DNA of 64,000 nucleotides from Sulfurospirillum sp. (GTDB lineage: Bacteria; Campylobacterota; Campylobacteria; Campylobacterales; Sulfurospirillaceae). Below are positions 16,835 to 55,336 of this stretch, one piece after another. The DNA lies in contig JACUTU010000002.1 of the NCBI GenBank assembly GCA_014859685.1, positions 62,001-126,000 of the forward strand, given 5' to 3'. Positions within the stretch are counted from its first letter, which is position 1. Each line of letters begins with the position of its first letter. Made by a program: the position numbers and the translations under genes. The notes beneath the pieces are model-generated. The model did no database searches, was not told where the DNA came from, and saw only the letters and a program-made list of their open reading frames with translations.

Positions 16835-17266
16835 ATGAAATTGACTAAATCATTAAAGCCAGCTGAGGTGCAACGCGATTGGATCGTTGTTGATGCAGCA
16901 GGTAAAAAATTCGGTAGAGTTATTACCCAAGTTGCAACACTTTTGCGTGGTAAACATAAGCCTTCTTTTACTCCAAATGTAGATTGCGGTGATTTCGTTA
17001 TCATCATCAACGCAGAAAAAGTAGAAGTAAGTGGCAATAAAATGGATGCAAAACTCTATCACAGACATTCAGGTTACTTTGGAAGTGTAAAAAGTGAAAA
17101 GATGGGCGACCTTTTAGTAAATAACCCAGCTAAACTTTACAGATTAGCAGTAAGAGGAATGTTACCAAAGACAAATCTTGCAAAAGATATGATCAAGAAA
17201 TTGAAAGTTTATGCAGGTAGCGAACATCCACACACAGCTCAAGTTAGCAAAACAGAAGGAAAATAG
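16835..17266 (+). CDS. rplM: 50S ribosomal protein L13
   Basis: 143 residues, the standard length. Recognisable L13 segments are [45 protein letters not shown] and [29 protein letters not shown]. It binds 23S rRNA early in assembly. The gene lies two bases before rpsI, the universal bacterial L13-S9 operon. Confidence 0.98.
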
Positions 17267-17658: not shown

Positions 17659-17667
17659 TCTGCACTG

Positions 17668-17696
17668 TACAAAGAAAGGCATCGCCTTTCTTTGTA
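17668..17696 (+). terminator. Intrinsic-type hairpin after rpsI
   Basis: A perfect 13-bp stem, TACAAAGAAAGGC (17668-17680) and GCCTTTCTTTGTA (17684-17696), around a 3-base loop, ten bases after the rpsI stop. The U-rich right arm is part of the stem. It ends the ribosomal operon. Confidence 0.85.
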
Positions 17697-17770
17697 TGTT
17701 TACAAAATTTTACAAAATACTTCTTTTACAAAAAAATTCATATACACTTCTCATTTTCTCAAAAAGCAGC

Positions 17771-17870: not shown

Positions 17871-17940
17871 AAAAAAGAGTTTTTCACTCTTATTTAACTT
17901 TTATTTATCATAGATTAATACTTCATTAAATCATTTACTT

Positions 17941-17946
17941 TATACT
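17941..17946 (+). promoter_or_regulatory. Possible -10 element of the candidate small RNA
   Basis: TATACT within TTTACTTTATACTTTC, in a strongly AT-rich stretch. A start about seven bases downstream would give a transcript of about 85 bases ending at the terminator near 18038. Confidence 0.4.
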
Positions 17947-17952
17947 TTCACT

Positions 17953-18038
17953 TACCAAGACAAAAACCTCCTTTTTGTAGATAGAACCTAAAATTTTTTT
18001 AAAAAGCGCTCGGGTTGCCCGCCCTGAGCGCTTTTTTT
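17953..18038 (+). ncRNA. Candidate small RNA with CCTCC hairpin loop and own terminator
   Basis: No open frame of note lies here, yet a very strong free-standing terminator stands 340 bases after the previous gene's own terminator. The preceding bases form a perfect 7-bp stem ACAAAAA (17960-17966) and TTTTTGT (17972-17978) with the 5-base loop CCTCC, the exact complement of a GGAGG ribosome-binding site. A possible -10 (TATACT, 17941) is correctly spaced. Architecture fits a trans-acting RNA that blocks Shine-Dalgarno sequences. Not matched to any known family; expression is inferred. Confidence 0.5.
18001..18038 (+). terminator. Strong free-standing intrinsic terminator
   Basis: AAAAAGCGCTC (18001-18011) pairs with GAGCGCTTTTT (18026-18036), with further GGG/CCC pairing inside and a 7-T run at 18032-18038. 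It has no protein gene directly upstream. Confidence 0.85.
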
Positions 18039-18061
18039 ATGTTCAAAATAAATCCATTTGG

Positions 18062-18073: not shown

Positions 18074-19576
18074 ATGAAAATATTTTTATTTATACTCTTA
18101 CTCGTCTTACATGTAAACGCATCAACCTTGCATCTTGCACTTTCAGCAAGTCCTGCCCGTATCAATCCGATACTTGCGACAGACTCGGCAAGTTCTGAGA
18201 TAACAAGATGGATTTTCAATGCGCTTGTTACTTATGATAAAGATGCTAGCATAAAACCAGAACTTGCGAAAAGTTACCGATTTATTGATGATATTTCGTT
18301 GGAATTTACACTCAGAGATGATGTGTATTGGAGTGATGGAGAAAAGTTTAGCGCACGCGATGTGGTATTTACTTATGAAACTATCATCTCACCTGATATA
18401 TTCACGCCCTATGCTTCTGGATTTGTACATGTAAAGAGTGTTGAAGCGCTGGACGATTACACTATTCTTGTGAAATACAAATATCCCTATTTTAAAGCAC
18501 TTGAAACTTGGATGATGGAGATATTGCCAGCACATGTACTCAAAGATGAAAAAAATCTTATGAGTGCAAAGTTCAATCAAAAACCTCTCGGAACAGGTTC
18601 ATATATCCTTGAGAATTTTTCTATCTCAAGTGATATCACTTTGCGTGCAAATGCAAATTATTTTATCCACAAACCAAATATTGACAAAATCATCTACCAT
18701 TTTTTACCCGATAGTTCTGCCCAATTTTTGATGCTTAAATCCAATAAACTAGATATAGGCTCGCTTACACCATTGCAGTTAGAGCGACAGATTGATGATG
18801 CGTTTAAGGAAAGATTTGACATAATCGAAGATATCGCCCACTCTTACACTTATATAGGGTTTAATTTGCGGTTGCCAAAATTTCAAGATCCATTAGTGCG
18901 AAGAGCGTTAAGTTTGGCGATTGATCGAGAAGAGATTGTGGATATTCTTTATTTTGGACATGGCGCTGTTTGTCATGGACCATTTTTGCCAGGAACTAGA
19001 GCGTTTAATGACACTATCAAATCACCAAAACAAGATATACAAGAAGCAAAAAAACTACTAAAAAAAGCTGGATATGATGCAAATAACCCCTTTGAATTTA
19101 CCATTAGCACAAACACAGGCATTAGAGGAACTTATCTAGCACAAATACTCCAACACCAGTTGCAAAAAGCTGGCATCATTTTAAAACTTCGTGTGATGGA
19201 ATGGCAAGCTTTTTTAAACACAGTGGTAAACCCGAGAAATTTTGAAGCTGTTTTGATGGGTTGGTCTTTGGGACTCAAGCCAGATGCTTATAGTCTTTGG
19301 CATTCAGAATCAAATAAAAAAGGTGGCTTTAATTTTATAGGTTATAAAAATGAAAAAGTAGATGCCCTCATCAAAAAAGCAGAAAAAACAGTCAATCAAG
19401 AGGCATTTGATGCAATGTATAGGGAGATATTTTATGAGATAGTTTATGATAACCCTTATCTTTTTTTAGTGATTCCAAACTCTATCACCGCCGTAAGTAA
19501 AGATATCAAAGGCGTGCAGCCATCGCTTATCGGGATCATGCACAATGTAGTTGATTGGAAAAAATCAGCGTTTTAA
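18074..19576 (+). CDS. Family 5 extracellular solute-binding protein (peptide/nickel type)
   Basis: About 500 residues with a signal peptide (KIFLFILLLVLHVNAS). It is an SBP_bac_5 protein (DppA/OppA type): LAPELAKSY-like IKPELAKSYRF, DVVFTYE, LPDSSAQFLMLKSNKLDIG, RALSLAIDREEIVD, and the C-terminal NPYLFLVIPNSITAV. It would bind peptides or nickel in the periplasm for an ABC importer. No permease or ATPase genes are adjacent, so it is an orphan or works with a distant transporter. ATG 18074 is chosen over GTG 18068. Confidence 0.88.
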   Translation: MKIFLFILLLVLHVNASTLHLALSASPARINPILATDSASSEITRWIFNALVTYDKDASIKPELAKSYRFIDDISLEFTLRDDVYWSDGEKFSARDVVFTYETIISPDIFTPYASGFVHVKSVEALDDYTILVKYKYPYFKALETWMMEILPAHVLKDEKNLMSAKFNQKPLGTGSYILENFSISSDITLRANANYFIHKPNIDKIIYHFLPDSSAQFLMLKSNKLDIGSLTPLQLERQIDDAFKERFDIIEDIAHSYTYIGFNLRLPKFQDPLVRRALSLAIDREEIVDILYFGHGAVCHGPFLPGTRAFNDTIKSPKQDIQEAKKLLKKAGYDANNPFEFTISTNTGIRGTYLAQILQHQLQKAGIILKLRVMEWQAFLNTVVNPRNFEAVLMGWSLGLKPDAYSLWHSESNKKGGFNFIGYKNEKVDALIKKAEKTVNQEAFDAMYREIFYEIVYDNPYLFLVIPNSITAVSKDIKGVQPSLIGIMHNVVDWKKSAF

Positions 19577-41967: not shown

Positions 41968-42951
41968 ATGAAAAAAGAATCTATTCAAACAAAGAATGGT
42001 AAAGCATTTGAATATGCTATTTTAAAAGAATTTAAAGAAAAACTAGAAAGAGCAACGACAGTAGAGGTTTTAGAAAACAATGCATTATTTACAGCACAAA
42101 AGCACTTTAATTCTTTTGAAAAAATAGAACAAGGAGAATTTCTACTTTATGCAAGTTTTGCAGTTAACTTTTTAATTGATATAGAACCAAGATTATCTTA
42201 CAGCTTTGATGAAAATGATATTTTACAATTAGAAATACTTATAGATGACAAGGGACAAGACGGTGATGTGAGAGATGTTGTTGCTATAAGGTTATTGCAA
42301 AAATGGGAAATAGGAATTTCAGCTAAAAATAATCATAAAGCTATAAAACACTCAAGACTTTCTAGTAAAATTGATTTTGGAGAAAAATGGCTTGGAATAA
42401 AATCATCAACACAATATTTCGATGAAATAAGACCAATATTTGACTCTCTTGAAAAAATGAGAACAGAAAATAATAAAACTAAAACTTGGAACTCTTTAGG
42501 CAATTATCATCTTGCAATATACACTCCTATATTAGAAGCCTTTAAAACAGAATTATTAAGAATATATAATACAAACCCTTCTCAAGTTGCTTCTACTTTA
42601 GTAGAGTACCTAATAGGAACTAAAGATTTTTACAAAGTAATTAAAAGTAAAAAGAATATTGAAATTCAAGCGTATAATTTGCATGGCACTTTAAATTTAC
42701 CTTTTAAAGATATTCATCCTAAATTTAATACACCAAAAGTTAATTTACCAACTGAAATTATCAATATATCGTATAAAGAAGATACCTTAACAACTTTAAT
42801 CGTTGAATTAAATAATGATTGGACACTATCTTTTCGAATTCATAATGCAAGTTCTAGAATTGAACCATCACTAAAATTTGATATAAATTTACTAAAAGCA
42901 CCTAATTCATTATTTACCAATAAACTTTCTATTGGAGGAGGAGAAGAATAA
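41968..42951 (+). CDS. HaeIII-family type II restriction endonuclease
   Basis: 327 residues, close to HaeIII (318). The start ([14 protein letters not shown]) and the region [23 protein letters not shown] followed by [20 protein letters not shown] resemble the HaeIII endonuclease family, with Asp and SAK as candidate catalytic residues. It would cut GGCC by analogy with its methylase partner. It comes first in the operon, and its stop overlaps the methyltransferase start by one base. Codons are strongly A/T-rich compared with flanking genes. Confidence 0.8.
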
Positions 42952-44036
42952 TGAATATAATATCTTTATTTTCTGGAGCTGGTGGATTAGATTTAGGTTT
43001 TGAAAAAGCAGGTTTTAAAACTATTTGGGCGAATGAATATGATAAGGAAATTTGGGAAACATTTGAAAAAAACTTCCCAAATACAATATTAGATAGAAGA
43101 AGTATCTCTAAAATTCCATCAGATGAAATTCCTGAAACTTTAGGGCTTATTGGTGGACCCCCGTGTCAAAGTTGGAGTGAAGCAGGCAAATCAAGAGGAA
43201 TAGATGACCACAGAGGACAACTGTTTTTTGAATTCATTCGTGTTTTAAGAGATAAGAAGCCCCTATTTTTCTTAGCAGAAAATGTTTCAGGAATGCTAGC
43301 CCCAAAACATGAAGAAGCACTTGAAAATATAAAAAATCATTTTATTGACAGTGGATATACTTTATCGTTTAAACTCATGAATGCTCATGATTACAAAGTG
43401 CCTCAAGATAGAAAAAGAATATTTTTTATTGGATTTAGAGATGACCTAAATATCACTTTTAAATTTCCAAAAGAGTTTGAAAAAAAATGCTTTTTAAAAG
43501 ATGTAATTTCTGATTTAAAAGATAATGTACTTCCTGCTAAAGAAAAAAACTATACAAATGGTGATAAATGTAAAATAGAAAATCATGAATTTATGACTGG
43601 TGGTTTTTCATCTATGTTTATGTCTAGAAATAGAGTTAGAGGTTGGGATGAGCCATCATTTACAATACAAGCAGGTGGAAGACATGCACCACTACATCCA
43701 CAAGCACCTAAAATGCAATTTGTAGAGCAAAATAAAAGAATATTCGTTCCACATAGTGAACATCTGTATAGAAGACTTAGTGTTAGAGAGTGTGCTAGAA
43801 TACAGACATTCCCAGATGGTCATAAATTCTATTATAAAAATGTAACTGCTGGCTATAAAATGGTAGGCAATGCAGTACCCCCTAATCTGGCATATTACTT
43901 AGCAAAAAAAATAATTGAAGACTTAGCGAGTGTATATCCTAACAAATCGTTGGAACTAACAAGTGTACCAGTCACTGGTAATTCTAATAATTATGAAAAT
44001 TGTTATAATTCTGATATAAATATTGCATCTTATTAG
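42951..44036 (+). CDS. DNA cytosine-5 methyltransferase, HaeIII-like
   Basis: 361 residues. All C5-methyltransferase motifs are in order: [29 protein letters not shown] (catalytic Cys), [25 protein letters not shown], the target-recognition region about 190-275 ([23 protein letters not shown]) and [19 protein letters not shown]. It is close to M.HaeIII along its length, so GGCC is the expected target. A C-terminal extension of about 30 residues (from VYPNKS) is not conserved. Protects host DNA from the endonuclease. Confidence 0.93.
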
Positions 44037-44274
44037 AGGTACACTTGTCCAGTTGGGAGTAAATGGGCAAACTGAAATGCTACAAGGCGACAAAAGGGTA
44101 TTTGTCCAAAAAGAAAACAGATATGTGTTGCTCAAAAAGTTAGGAAACAGTTATAGATTGGCACTTAAAAACATAGTAGATAAAGATGAGATATTTGCTA
44201 CAAGCTTAGTGAAAATAATTGATATAGAAAAAGAAGCTTATAAATTAAGACGATTTGAAGAGGTGCAAGAGTGA
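44023..44274 (+). CDS. Hypothetical 83-residue protein behind the methyltransferase
   Basis: The frame starts with TTG 44023 inside the methyltransferase end or possibly TTG 44053, 14 bases after AGAGG. The protein is charged and soluble ([35 protein letters not shown]). I do not recognise a family. It is in the same operon orientation and may belong to the restriction island. Coding status is uncertain because there is no good start. Confidence 0.4.
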
Positions 44275-53931: not shown

Positions 53932-55336
53932 AAACACCTCCTAATAATTGTGTAGCTTCAAGCAAGACTTGTGATACGAATGAGGGCATATAAAGACCGA
54001 TAAAAGCCACGATGCCTAAGAAAAGAAAGGGACTCACAAACATAAAAGAGCGTTCATGAAACCTTTGCATACCAGTAGGCGGCTTACCGCGAACAACCCC
54101 TAGGATGGTGCGGCTCATACCAAAAAAAGCGATAACTAAACCAAAGATGAGTGCAAAAAATAGCAAGATAGAATAAGAAAATGTACCTTGAATGATATGA
54201 AAAATGGATACAAAACTTCCAAAAGGAGGTGTTCCTACGATCGCAAAGAGAGCAATTAGCAGGGCAAAAGCACTATATGGCATGATACGAATTGCTCCAG
54301 AAATGCCTTTCGCATCTCGCGTACCAAAAACTCTTTTGACATTGCCAAGGGCGATAAAAACAGTGCCTTTAAGTAAAGCATTGTTAAAAAGATGGTACAT
54401 AGCCGCCCAAATACCAGCACCGCCTAAGCCAAAGCCAATGGCGATAAGCCCCATCTGTTCTACGCTTGAATATGCCATCAGTCTTTTGGTGTCATTTTGT
54501 TTGAGCATAGAAAATGCACCGAAAAGCACCGAAAGAATACCAAATACGATCAAGGCATCACGCATACAAGCTTCTTGATGTGCTGCGTGCATGATCTGCA
54601 TCAAGCGCATCATAGCAAGCCATGAAAGTGTTGTCATGCCACCAGCCATCAATGCCCCAAACAATCCAGGTTCTTCACTATAAGCATCAACTTTCCAAAG
54701 ATGCAGAGGAAAAAGTCCGATTTTGGTTGCAAAGCCTATAAAGATGAAAACAAAAGCGATGAGAAACCATGTTGTGTTAAACTCTTCTGCTCTTGCAAAA
54801 AGTGTGAAAAAATCAAGATCCATATGTTCGATATTTGCAATCAGTGAAGAGTAAGCTAAAAATAAAATCCCAATAAGTGCGAGTAAAATTCCGATGGAAA
54901 CTAAGAAGAGGTATTTCCAAGTTGCTTCGATGGAGCCTTTATTTTTTGTGTAGTAGATGAGCGGCGCACACGAGAGTGAGGAGGATTCGAGAAAAATCCA
55001 CATACTAATGAGATCTTTGGCCATCATCATGCCAGTTGCAAAAAATAAAAACAGATGTAAACTGATGATAACTACAAGATTGGAATTATCCTTCAAACAA
55101 TGTGAAAAATATCCAATAGCGTGCAGAGCAATGCCTCCAAAAAGCAGTGAGAGTGTAACTAAAATCCAGACCGAAAGCGCGTCCATGCCACTATTTTGTC
55201 CAAGCAATACAACAAAGCTCATGCTTACATGTAACAAAGCAGTGATCCCTAAAATCACAGCTCTTTGATGATTTGTTTTGCCAAAATAGCTCAAGCCTAT
55301 TGCTAAAAGTGTCCAGATAAAAAAAGCTATGAGCAT
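53918..55336 (-). CDS. NuoN/HyfF-like antiporter-type membrane subunit
   Basis: 472 residues, about 14 membrane helices. Proton-translocating module of the complex I antiporter family: MDALSVWILVTLSLLFGGIALHAIGY, ATKIGLFPLHLWKVDAYSEEPGLFGALMAGGM, KRLMAYSSVEQMGLIAIG and FNNALLKGTVFIALGNV are the conserved segments with the key Lys and His. Lies between the HyfE-like and large subunit genes. Confidence 0.92.
   Translation of the reverse strand: MLIAFFIWTLLAIGLSYFGKTNHQRAVILGITALLHVSMSFVVLLGQNSGMDALSVWILVTLSLLFGGIALHAIGYFSHCLKDNSNLVVIISLHLFLFFATGMMMAKDLISMWIFLESSSLSCAPLIYYTKNKGSIEATWKYLFLVSIGILLALIGILFLAYSSLIANIEHMDLDFFTLFARAEEFNTTWFLIAFVFIFIGFATKIGLFPLHLWKVDAYSEEPGLFGALMAGGMTTLSWLAMMRLMQIMHAAHQEACMRDALIVFGILSVLFGAFSMLKQNDTKRLMAYSSVEQMGLIAIGFGLGGAGIWAAMYHLFNNALLKGTVFIALGNVKRVFGTRDAKGISGAIRIMPYSAFALLIALFAIVGTPPFGSFVSIFHIIQGTFSYSILLFFALIFGLVIAFFGMSRTILGVVRGKPPTGMQRFHERSFMFVSPFLFLGIVAFIGLYMPSFVSQVLLEATQLLGGVYGGF

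Follow-up and report, generated by a model that had tools for sequence, protein, structure and literature searches.

The small RNA locus described here lies at positions 17893 to 18038 of the window, by which we mean the whole stretch of 64,000 nucleotides analysed, between rpsI (ribosomal protein S9) and an ABC substrate-binding protein gene that starts at 18074. The unit is laid out as a conserved promoter, a single-stranded ACCUCCUUUUUG, an A/U-rich linker and an intrinsic terminator, with the following features:

17667 to 17697, plus strand: separate hairpin after rpsI, a neighbour outside the small RNA (-18.8 kcal/mol, z = -4.7)
17893 to 17940, plus strand: promoter region 5' of the -10 element, lacking a -35 box and marked by T-rich blocks in phase
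17900 to 17907 (TTTATTTA), 17914 to 17918 (ATTAA) and about 17925 to 17930 (the position of GTTTAA in other copies): T-rich blocks of the promoter
17941 to 17946, plus strand: -10 element TATACT
17953 to 18038, plus strand: predicted small RNA of about 85 nt, from the covariance model match and the fold
17960 to 17978, plus strand: 5' hairpin of the window copy (ACAAAAA, 17960 to 17966; loop CCTCC, 17967 to 17971; TTTTTGT, 17972 to 17978)
17966 to 17977, plus strand: exposed anti-Shine-Dalgarno segment ACCTCCTTTTTG, the seed, with columns invariant or nearly so
18001 to 18038, plus strand: intrinsic terminator of the small RNA (stem 18001 to 18014 with 18023 to 18036; T-run 18032 to 18038)
18015 to 18022, plus strand: terminator loop TTGCCCGC, containing the near-invariant UGCCC
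18074 to 19576, plus strand: ABC substrate-binding protein gene, the downstream neighbour, Opp4A/NikA-like with a score below the NCBIfam cut-off

A preliminary description of this DNA had placed a TATACT element, a 7-bp stem, a CCTCC loop and a terminator here, and all are present where it put them. It had also regarded the terminator as one that no gene needs, which agrees with our observation that rpsI has a strong hairpin of its own.

The 98-nt segment from 17941 to 18038 is predicted to fold with -24.7 kcal/mol (z = -4.0), a value that none of 200 shuffled sequences equalled. In 41 copies with unrelated flanks, conservation sets in about 48 nt 5' of the -10 element and ends just past the T-run, and the promoter region carries a mean of 0.70 bits of information versus 0.14 far upstream. 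The -10 element of these copies has an invariant TATA, partly by construction because the copies were anchored on it, followed by C in 85% and T in 88% at the last two places. We infer that transcription starts at about 17952 to 17955. No ATG occurs in the part of the window copy that is predicted to be transcribed, and since the length of the linker varies between copies, no reading frame is kept.

A blastn search of 60 related genomes with a 146-nt query returned strong multi-copy matches across the Sulfurospirillaceae, among them another copy from the genome of the window itself (G000:C23:16888-16968 by blastn; 16881-16982 by the covariance model). From 70 loci we extracted 75 copies, of which 54 non-redundant ones were aligned (alignment A1) and used to build a covariance model, R1. 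This model gave 134 matches in 41 of the 44 Sulfurospirillaceae genomes, with 1 to 9 per genome; the three genomes lacking a match are draft assemblies of 77 to 92% completeness. The window copy (G000:C15:79948-80045, equal to window positions 17947 to 18044) scored 97.6 bits (E = 1.3e-13), which is not an independent score as this copy is itself part of R1. Outside the family, the 227 genomes of other Campylobacterales families yielded one weak, doubtful match, a near-absence as seen with one model and strict filters. In other collections the host names were Sulfurospirillum species and Sulfurospirillaceae bins. An exact-pattern search of 257 Gb outside the family found about 14 occurrences versus about 14 expected by chance, as computed from 20 fixed bases and 29 gap lengths, and the covariance model drops them. 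IMG/VR gave a single match with a chance-level score, the phage collection contained no copy, and the whole window had no match to Rfam 15 at the gathering threshold. No published study of Sulfurospirillum small RNAs was found in the open literature, subscription journals lying outside the search. Nearly every Sulfurospirillum-type bacterium thus carries 1 to 9 copies of a previously undescribed small RNA family; the preliminary description had noticed neither this family nor the second copy in the same genome.

Two copies lie on plasmids. That of pSDCE1 (L145:4024-4124) is located just upstream of parA-parB-rep, and that of pSulSP (L144:5007-5106) is surrounded by phage- or plasmid-like hypothetical genes; a plasmid-borne copy could change the dose of the small RNA in its host. 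One genome, G005, has three near-identical copies inside 1.4 kb (L382:1064-2488), and several genomes of the same genus have pairs about 1.2 to 2.2 kb apart, with a related opposite-strand gene between the paired copies in some loci. In another family, a candidate of 35.5 bits upstream of a moaC-like gene (G235:C1:1285635-1285709; L380:2036-2110) consists of CAAGATAAAAACCTCCTTTTTGTATT followed directly by a GC-rich terminator, the loop of which lacks GCCC. It is a possible short-form relative, and such forms may exist beyond the Sulfurospirillaceae.

Mean column identity among the aligned copies is 65%, and what has been kept is unevenly distributed. Of 68 distinct copies, 67 have CCUCC, which is predicted to be unpaired with a mean probability of 0.96, compared with 0.66 for the 5' region as a whole; the ACCUCCUUUUU columns of the 54-copy alignment are invariant or nearly so. 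The two helices behave differently. At all 10 modelled pairs of the terminator stem we observed compensatory double changes, with 97.2% of cells paired, whereas the first 7-bp stem has 81% of cells paired and lacks double changes altogether at its 7 pairs (for both helices together, 155 double-change cells versus a shuffle mean of 45). Some copies carry ACAAUUACCUCCUUUUUGU, others a shifted ACACA/UGUGU stem, and one genus has GACGCAACCCUCCUUUUUAG, with neither the ACACA/UGUGU-type nor the 7-bp first stem. With no pair showing compensatory change, the first stem was rejected as a covarying conserved element: the 7-bp stem presenting CCTCC, as first described, exists in the window copy but is not a conserved feature of the family. 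The question of whether relatives keep the loop or only the terminator is answered in favour of the loop, the terminator stem having exchanged its sequence with compensation. These comparisons indicate that constraint is on the exposed sequence and not on any single hairpin, and the idea of a small RNA with an anti-Shine-Dalgarno segment is, at the level of sequence, well supported by the conserved, exposed CCUCC. The UGCCC of the terminator loop, which the preliminary description had not mentioned, is a second near-invariant, strongly constrained element. In a sample of 45 terminators, drawn from the window itself and from 40 loci, a GCCC loop was found in 28/28 terminators of the small RNA and in 0/17 others (Fisher p of about 1e-12, a descriptive value since the copies are related).

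Pattern searches were the sole means of identifying candidate targets. A full AAGGAGG lies 3 to 10 nt 5' of an ATG at 29 sites in the window's genome, versus 20 in a reversed control, and 20 of the 29 sites open a frame of at least 30 aa. With so few full AAGGAGG sites near ATG, the seed can act on selected messages instead of globally. When the lists of five genomes were compared (for G002 and G022, among the matches listed), the sites common to genomes, among the matches listed, lay 5' of nosZ, flaG, ccoO and a gene for a 66-aa twin-arginine protein, which we take to be a formate dehydrogenase accessory protein (it has no family match). Further shared sites, again among the matches listed, preceded genes for a SoxA-like cytochrome c, a CxxCH heme-motif protein and an Opr porin, and a response-regulator cluster included non-orthologous members. 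The full AAGGAGG precedes flaG in 9/12 family members versus 0/12 outside (p = 0.0003), and still in 6/9 versus 0/12 (p = 0.0015) once the three genomes that suggested it are left out. The corresponding contrasts for nosZ (8/9 versus 3/5) and ccoO (7/12 versus 4/13) were not significant. The sole tested candidate with a stronger ribosome site where the small RNA occurs, flaG is therefore the best candidate for a putative target; its choice from about a dozen shared clusters and the phylogenetic dependence of the genomes weaken the case. The likeliest regulon, as predicted from these sites, would comprise flaG and perhaps nosZ, ccoO and the twin-arginine leader protein of formate dehydrogenase.

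The flaG leaders of several genera (for example L318 and L316) contain an inverted repeat, TGTC-AAGGAG-GACA, just before the start codon, with GGAG in the loop; kissing of this ribosome-site hairpin with the loop of the small RNA was set aside as marginal and confined to some genera. Two other target patterns were also rejected. AAAAGGAGG(T)-ATG gave few sites per genome, mostly unshared. GGGCAA, the complement of the terminator loop, occurs near ATG at 196 sites versus 34 in the reversed control, yet this is uninformative: its frequency in the window is exactly as the Markov model predicts, so the excess reflects composition. At L257 (G019:C1:1441597-1442120), a full AAGGAGG (TTTTTTAAGGAGGAAGTATG), the ideal partner of the small RNA, lies 5' of a putative pceA, presumably the tetrachloroethene reductive dehalogenase gene of S. 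diekertiae, for which there was no family match. As for the window itself, AGGAGG had been attributed to ccoN, ccoP and the Ehr large subunit. We found it near the start codons of ccoN (6831) and of a gene at 53942 (minus strand, 496 aa) that may be the one for the Ehr subunit, but not of ccoP, and the three are unsupported as a set of targets. The ribosome site AGGAGG also precedes a gene for a 361-aa protein that is C5 DNA methyltransferase-like by its N-terminus (42936 to 44040, plus strand). Across the window (1 to 64000, both strands), TACATG/CATGTA was seen 105 times versus 61 expected under a Markov model, and ACATGT 104 times versus 64.

In the window, the substrate-binding protein gene starts 36 nt past the terminator, and the same gene follows 22 of the 75 copies, making it the commonest downstream neighbour. 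This arrangement would suit a cis-acting leader or attenuator of that gene, its terminator being read through in some condition. The remaining copies, however, precede other, unrelated genes, about one fifth (approximately 16/75) have a downstream gene of opposite strand, the plasmid copies have other neighbours, and the RNAalifold consensus holds no conserved alternative anti-terminator pairing. The conserved same-orientation downstream gene expected of a leader is thus lacking, and adjacency in 22/75 copies shows no link in function between the small RNA and the substrate-binding protein gene. Because 41 copies have unrelated flanks around a conserved unit that spans promoter to T-run, and because in about one fifth of copies the downstream gene runs in the other direction, the small RNA is not a leader; for the family as a whole that explanation is largely refuted, and we consider it highly improbable. 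By its sequence, the small RNA is shown to be an independent gene with its own promoter and terminator and no conserved neighbour or reading frame. The unrelated flanks, the many copies, some on plasmids and some near-identical within one genus, might also describe a mobile or amplified promoter-terminator cassette, copied around the genome with no regulatory role. Copies that have diverged to a mean column identity of 65% have nonetheless retained the promoter blocks, both unpaired segments and the base pairing of the terminator, the latter with compensatory changes at 10/10 pairs, and the commonest locus is maintained across several genera; a mere repeat is accordingly very unlikely. The simplest explanation, a plain terminator preceded by a chance hairpin, draws on the chance frequency of the short motif: a 15-mer with two mismatches should turn up about once in the window, so the motif by itself is weak evidence. 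The strong multi-copy matches found family-wide raise the motif above chance, and this explanation, refuted by the family-wide conservation, has a negligible probability.

An explanation of another kind is a mimic: the exposed ACCUCCUUU would imitate the anti-Shine-Dalgarno tail at the 3' end of 16S rRNA, and the RNA, instead of regulating particular mRNAs, would have a global effect or would serve as a decoy for proteins recognising this tail in rRNA processing, ribosome maturation or initiation. The invariant ACCUCCUU is indeed the sequence of the bacterial 16S tail and is kept more strictly than many small RNA seeds; in the window's draft genome, a pattern search did not find the 16S end pattern. 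A conserved second, unrelated loop, UGCCC, would be out of place in a pure mimic of the tail, and the flaG pattern fits mRNA targets. We judge the mimic unlikely. The reading we favour, with a probability of roughly three in four, is that of a multicopy, trans-acting, presumably Hfq-independent anti-Shine-Dalgarno small RNA that tunes the translation of selected genes. Two things expected of such an RNA were observed here, namely an independent intergenic gene with its own promoter and intrinsic terminator, and a conserved, accessible seed. Against it stand the modest excess of AAGGAGG over the reversed control and a seed of 7 to 8 bp, which is shorter than many well-studied small RNA interactions.

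In the favoured trans-acting mechanism, the RNA would be transcribed from a sigma70-type promoter, and its CCUCCUU would pair, probably without Hfq, with selected mRNAs whose Shine-Dalgarno site, AAGGAGG, is unusually strong, blocking ribosome loading; the terminator loop may add a second contact or specificity. The ribosome sites of the clade are presumably mostly short, so that an anti-Shine-Dalgarno seed could be selective. In Campylobacter jejuni, the usual ribosome site is aAGGa, and Hfq is absent (PMC3847290). A more elaborate proposal is a family of two-site riboregulators peculiar to the Sulfurospirillaceae: the anti-Shine-Dalgarno segment would work jointly with the UGCCC loop, through dual-site recognition or a protein partner, and up to nine copies, plus those on plasmids, would tune flagellar and respiratory genes by dosage without Hfq. 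This we regard as possible but doubtful.

What is known of small RNAs in Campylobacterota comes from a handful of RNAs of Helicobacter and Campylobacter. The present family adds a well-delimited, easily testable multicopy small RNA across environmental Sulfurospirillaceae, organohalide-respiring strains included, whose lineage is expected to be without Hfq. It is a clear example of evolution retaining the seed and replacing the stems, and would mean that multicopy anti-Shine-Dalgarno small RNAs arose in one more phylum. That AAGGAGG is so rare suggests how such a seed can be selective where the usual ribosome sites are weak. Helicobacter pylori and C. jejuni have no common small RNA apart from stable RNAs such as 6S (PMC3847290).

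Several known systems resemble the family in part; in its presumed mode of action it is like LhrC, the alpha-r14 RNAs and the NmsR siblings. RepG of H. pylori is likewise small, with two stem-loops and a C/U-rich terminator loop as its mRNA-binding site, but it targets a G-repeat and is single copy, and its authors reported no homologue outside Helicobacter, Sulfurospirillum included (PMC8295292). Set apart by this description, RepG is an analogue and not a relative. The C. jejuni RNAs CjNC1/CjNC4 (CJnc10/CJnc170) and CJnc230 come from the same order as Sulfurospirillum (PMC4626219, PMC11187230). CjNC1 and CjNC4, which are paralogues, base-pair with sigma54 flagellar genes in the region of the ribosome site and did not need Hfq for their action in a reporter host (PMC4626219); CJnc230 uses the ribosome sites of flgM and Cj1387c to repress these two genes (PMC11187230). 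Both are precedents for the predicted pairing. Their expression is sigma28- or RpoN-linked, whereas the copies described here have TATACT and T-rich blocks in place of the sigma28 (CGATwt) promoter of CjNC1/CjNC4, which are set apart by promoter only; on the sampled genomes of other Campylobacterales families, R1 found no homologue beyond the one doubtful match. NmsRA and NmsRB of Neisseria are also sibling RNAs with anti-Shine-Dalgarno motifs and directly repress metabolic enzymes (PMC5362039), but they are two tandem copies with two such motifs, under stringent-response control, in an unrelated organism. The alpha-r14/NfeR1 RNAs of rhizobia share an ultraconserved, unpaired anti-Shine-Dalgarno motif, freely varying stems and paralogous copies (PMC10746234). 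They have three hairpins, each with CCUCCUCCC, and an alpha-proteobacterial promoter, compared with one CCUCCUU segment here (CCUCCUUUUU) and the UGCCC terminator loop. LhrC1-5 of Listeria monocytogenes (RF00616; PMC4132741) likewise form a multicopy family, their C-rich motifs lying in a 5' loop and in the loop of the terminator, and LhrC blocks the Shine-Dalgarno site of an mRNA, for which Hfq is not needed (PMC4132741). LhrC belongs to another phylum and is induced by LisRK, and the score against RF00616, 23.1 bits, falls below the gathering threshold of 110. With one anti-Shine-Dalgarno CCUCC segment and a UGCCC terminator loop in 1 to 9 copies, the Sulfurospirillaceae family follows the LhrC-type pattern, as a resemblance and not as homology.
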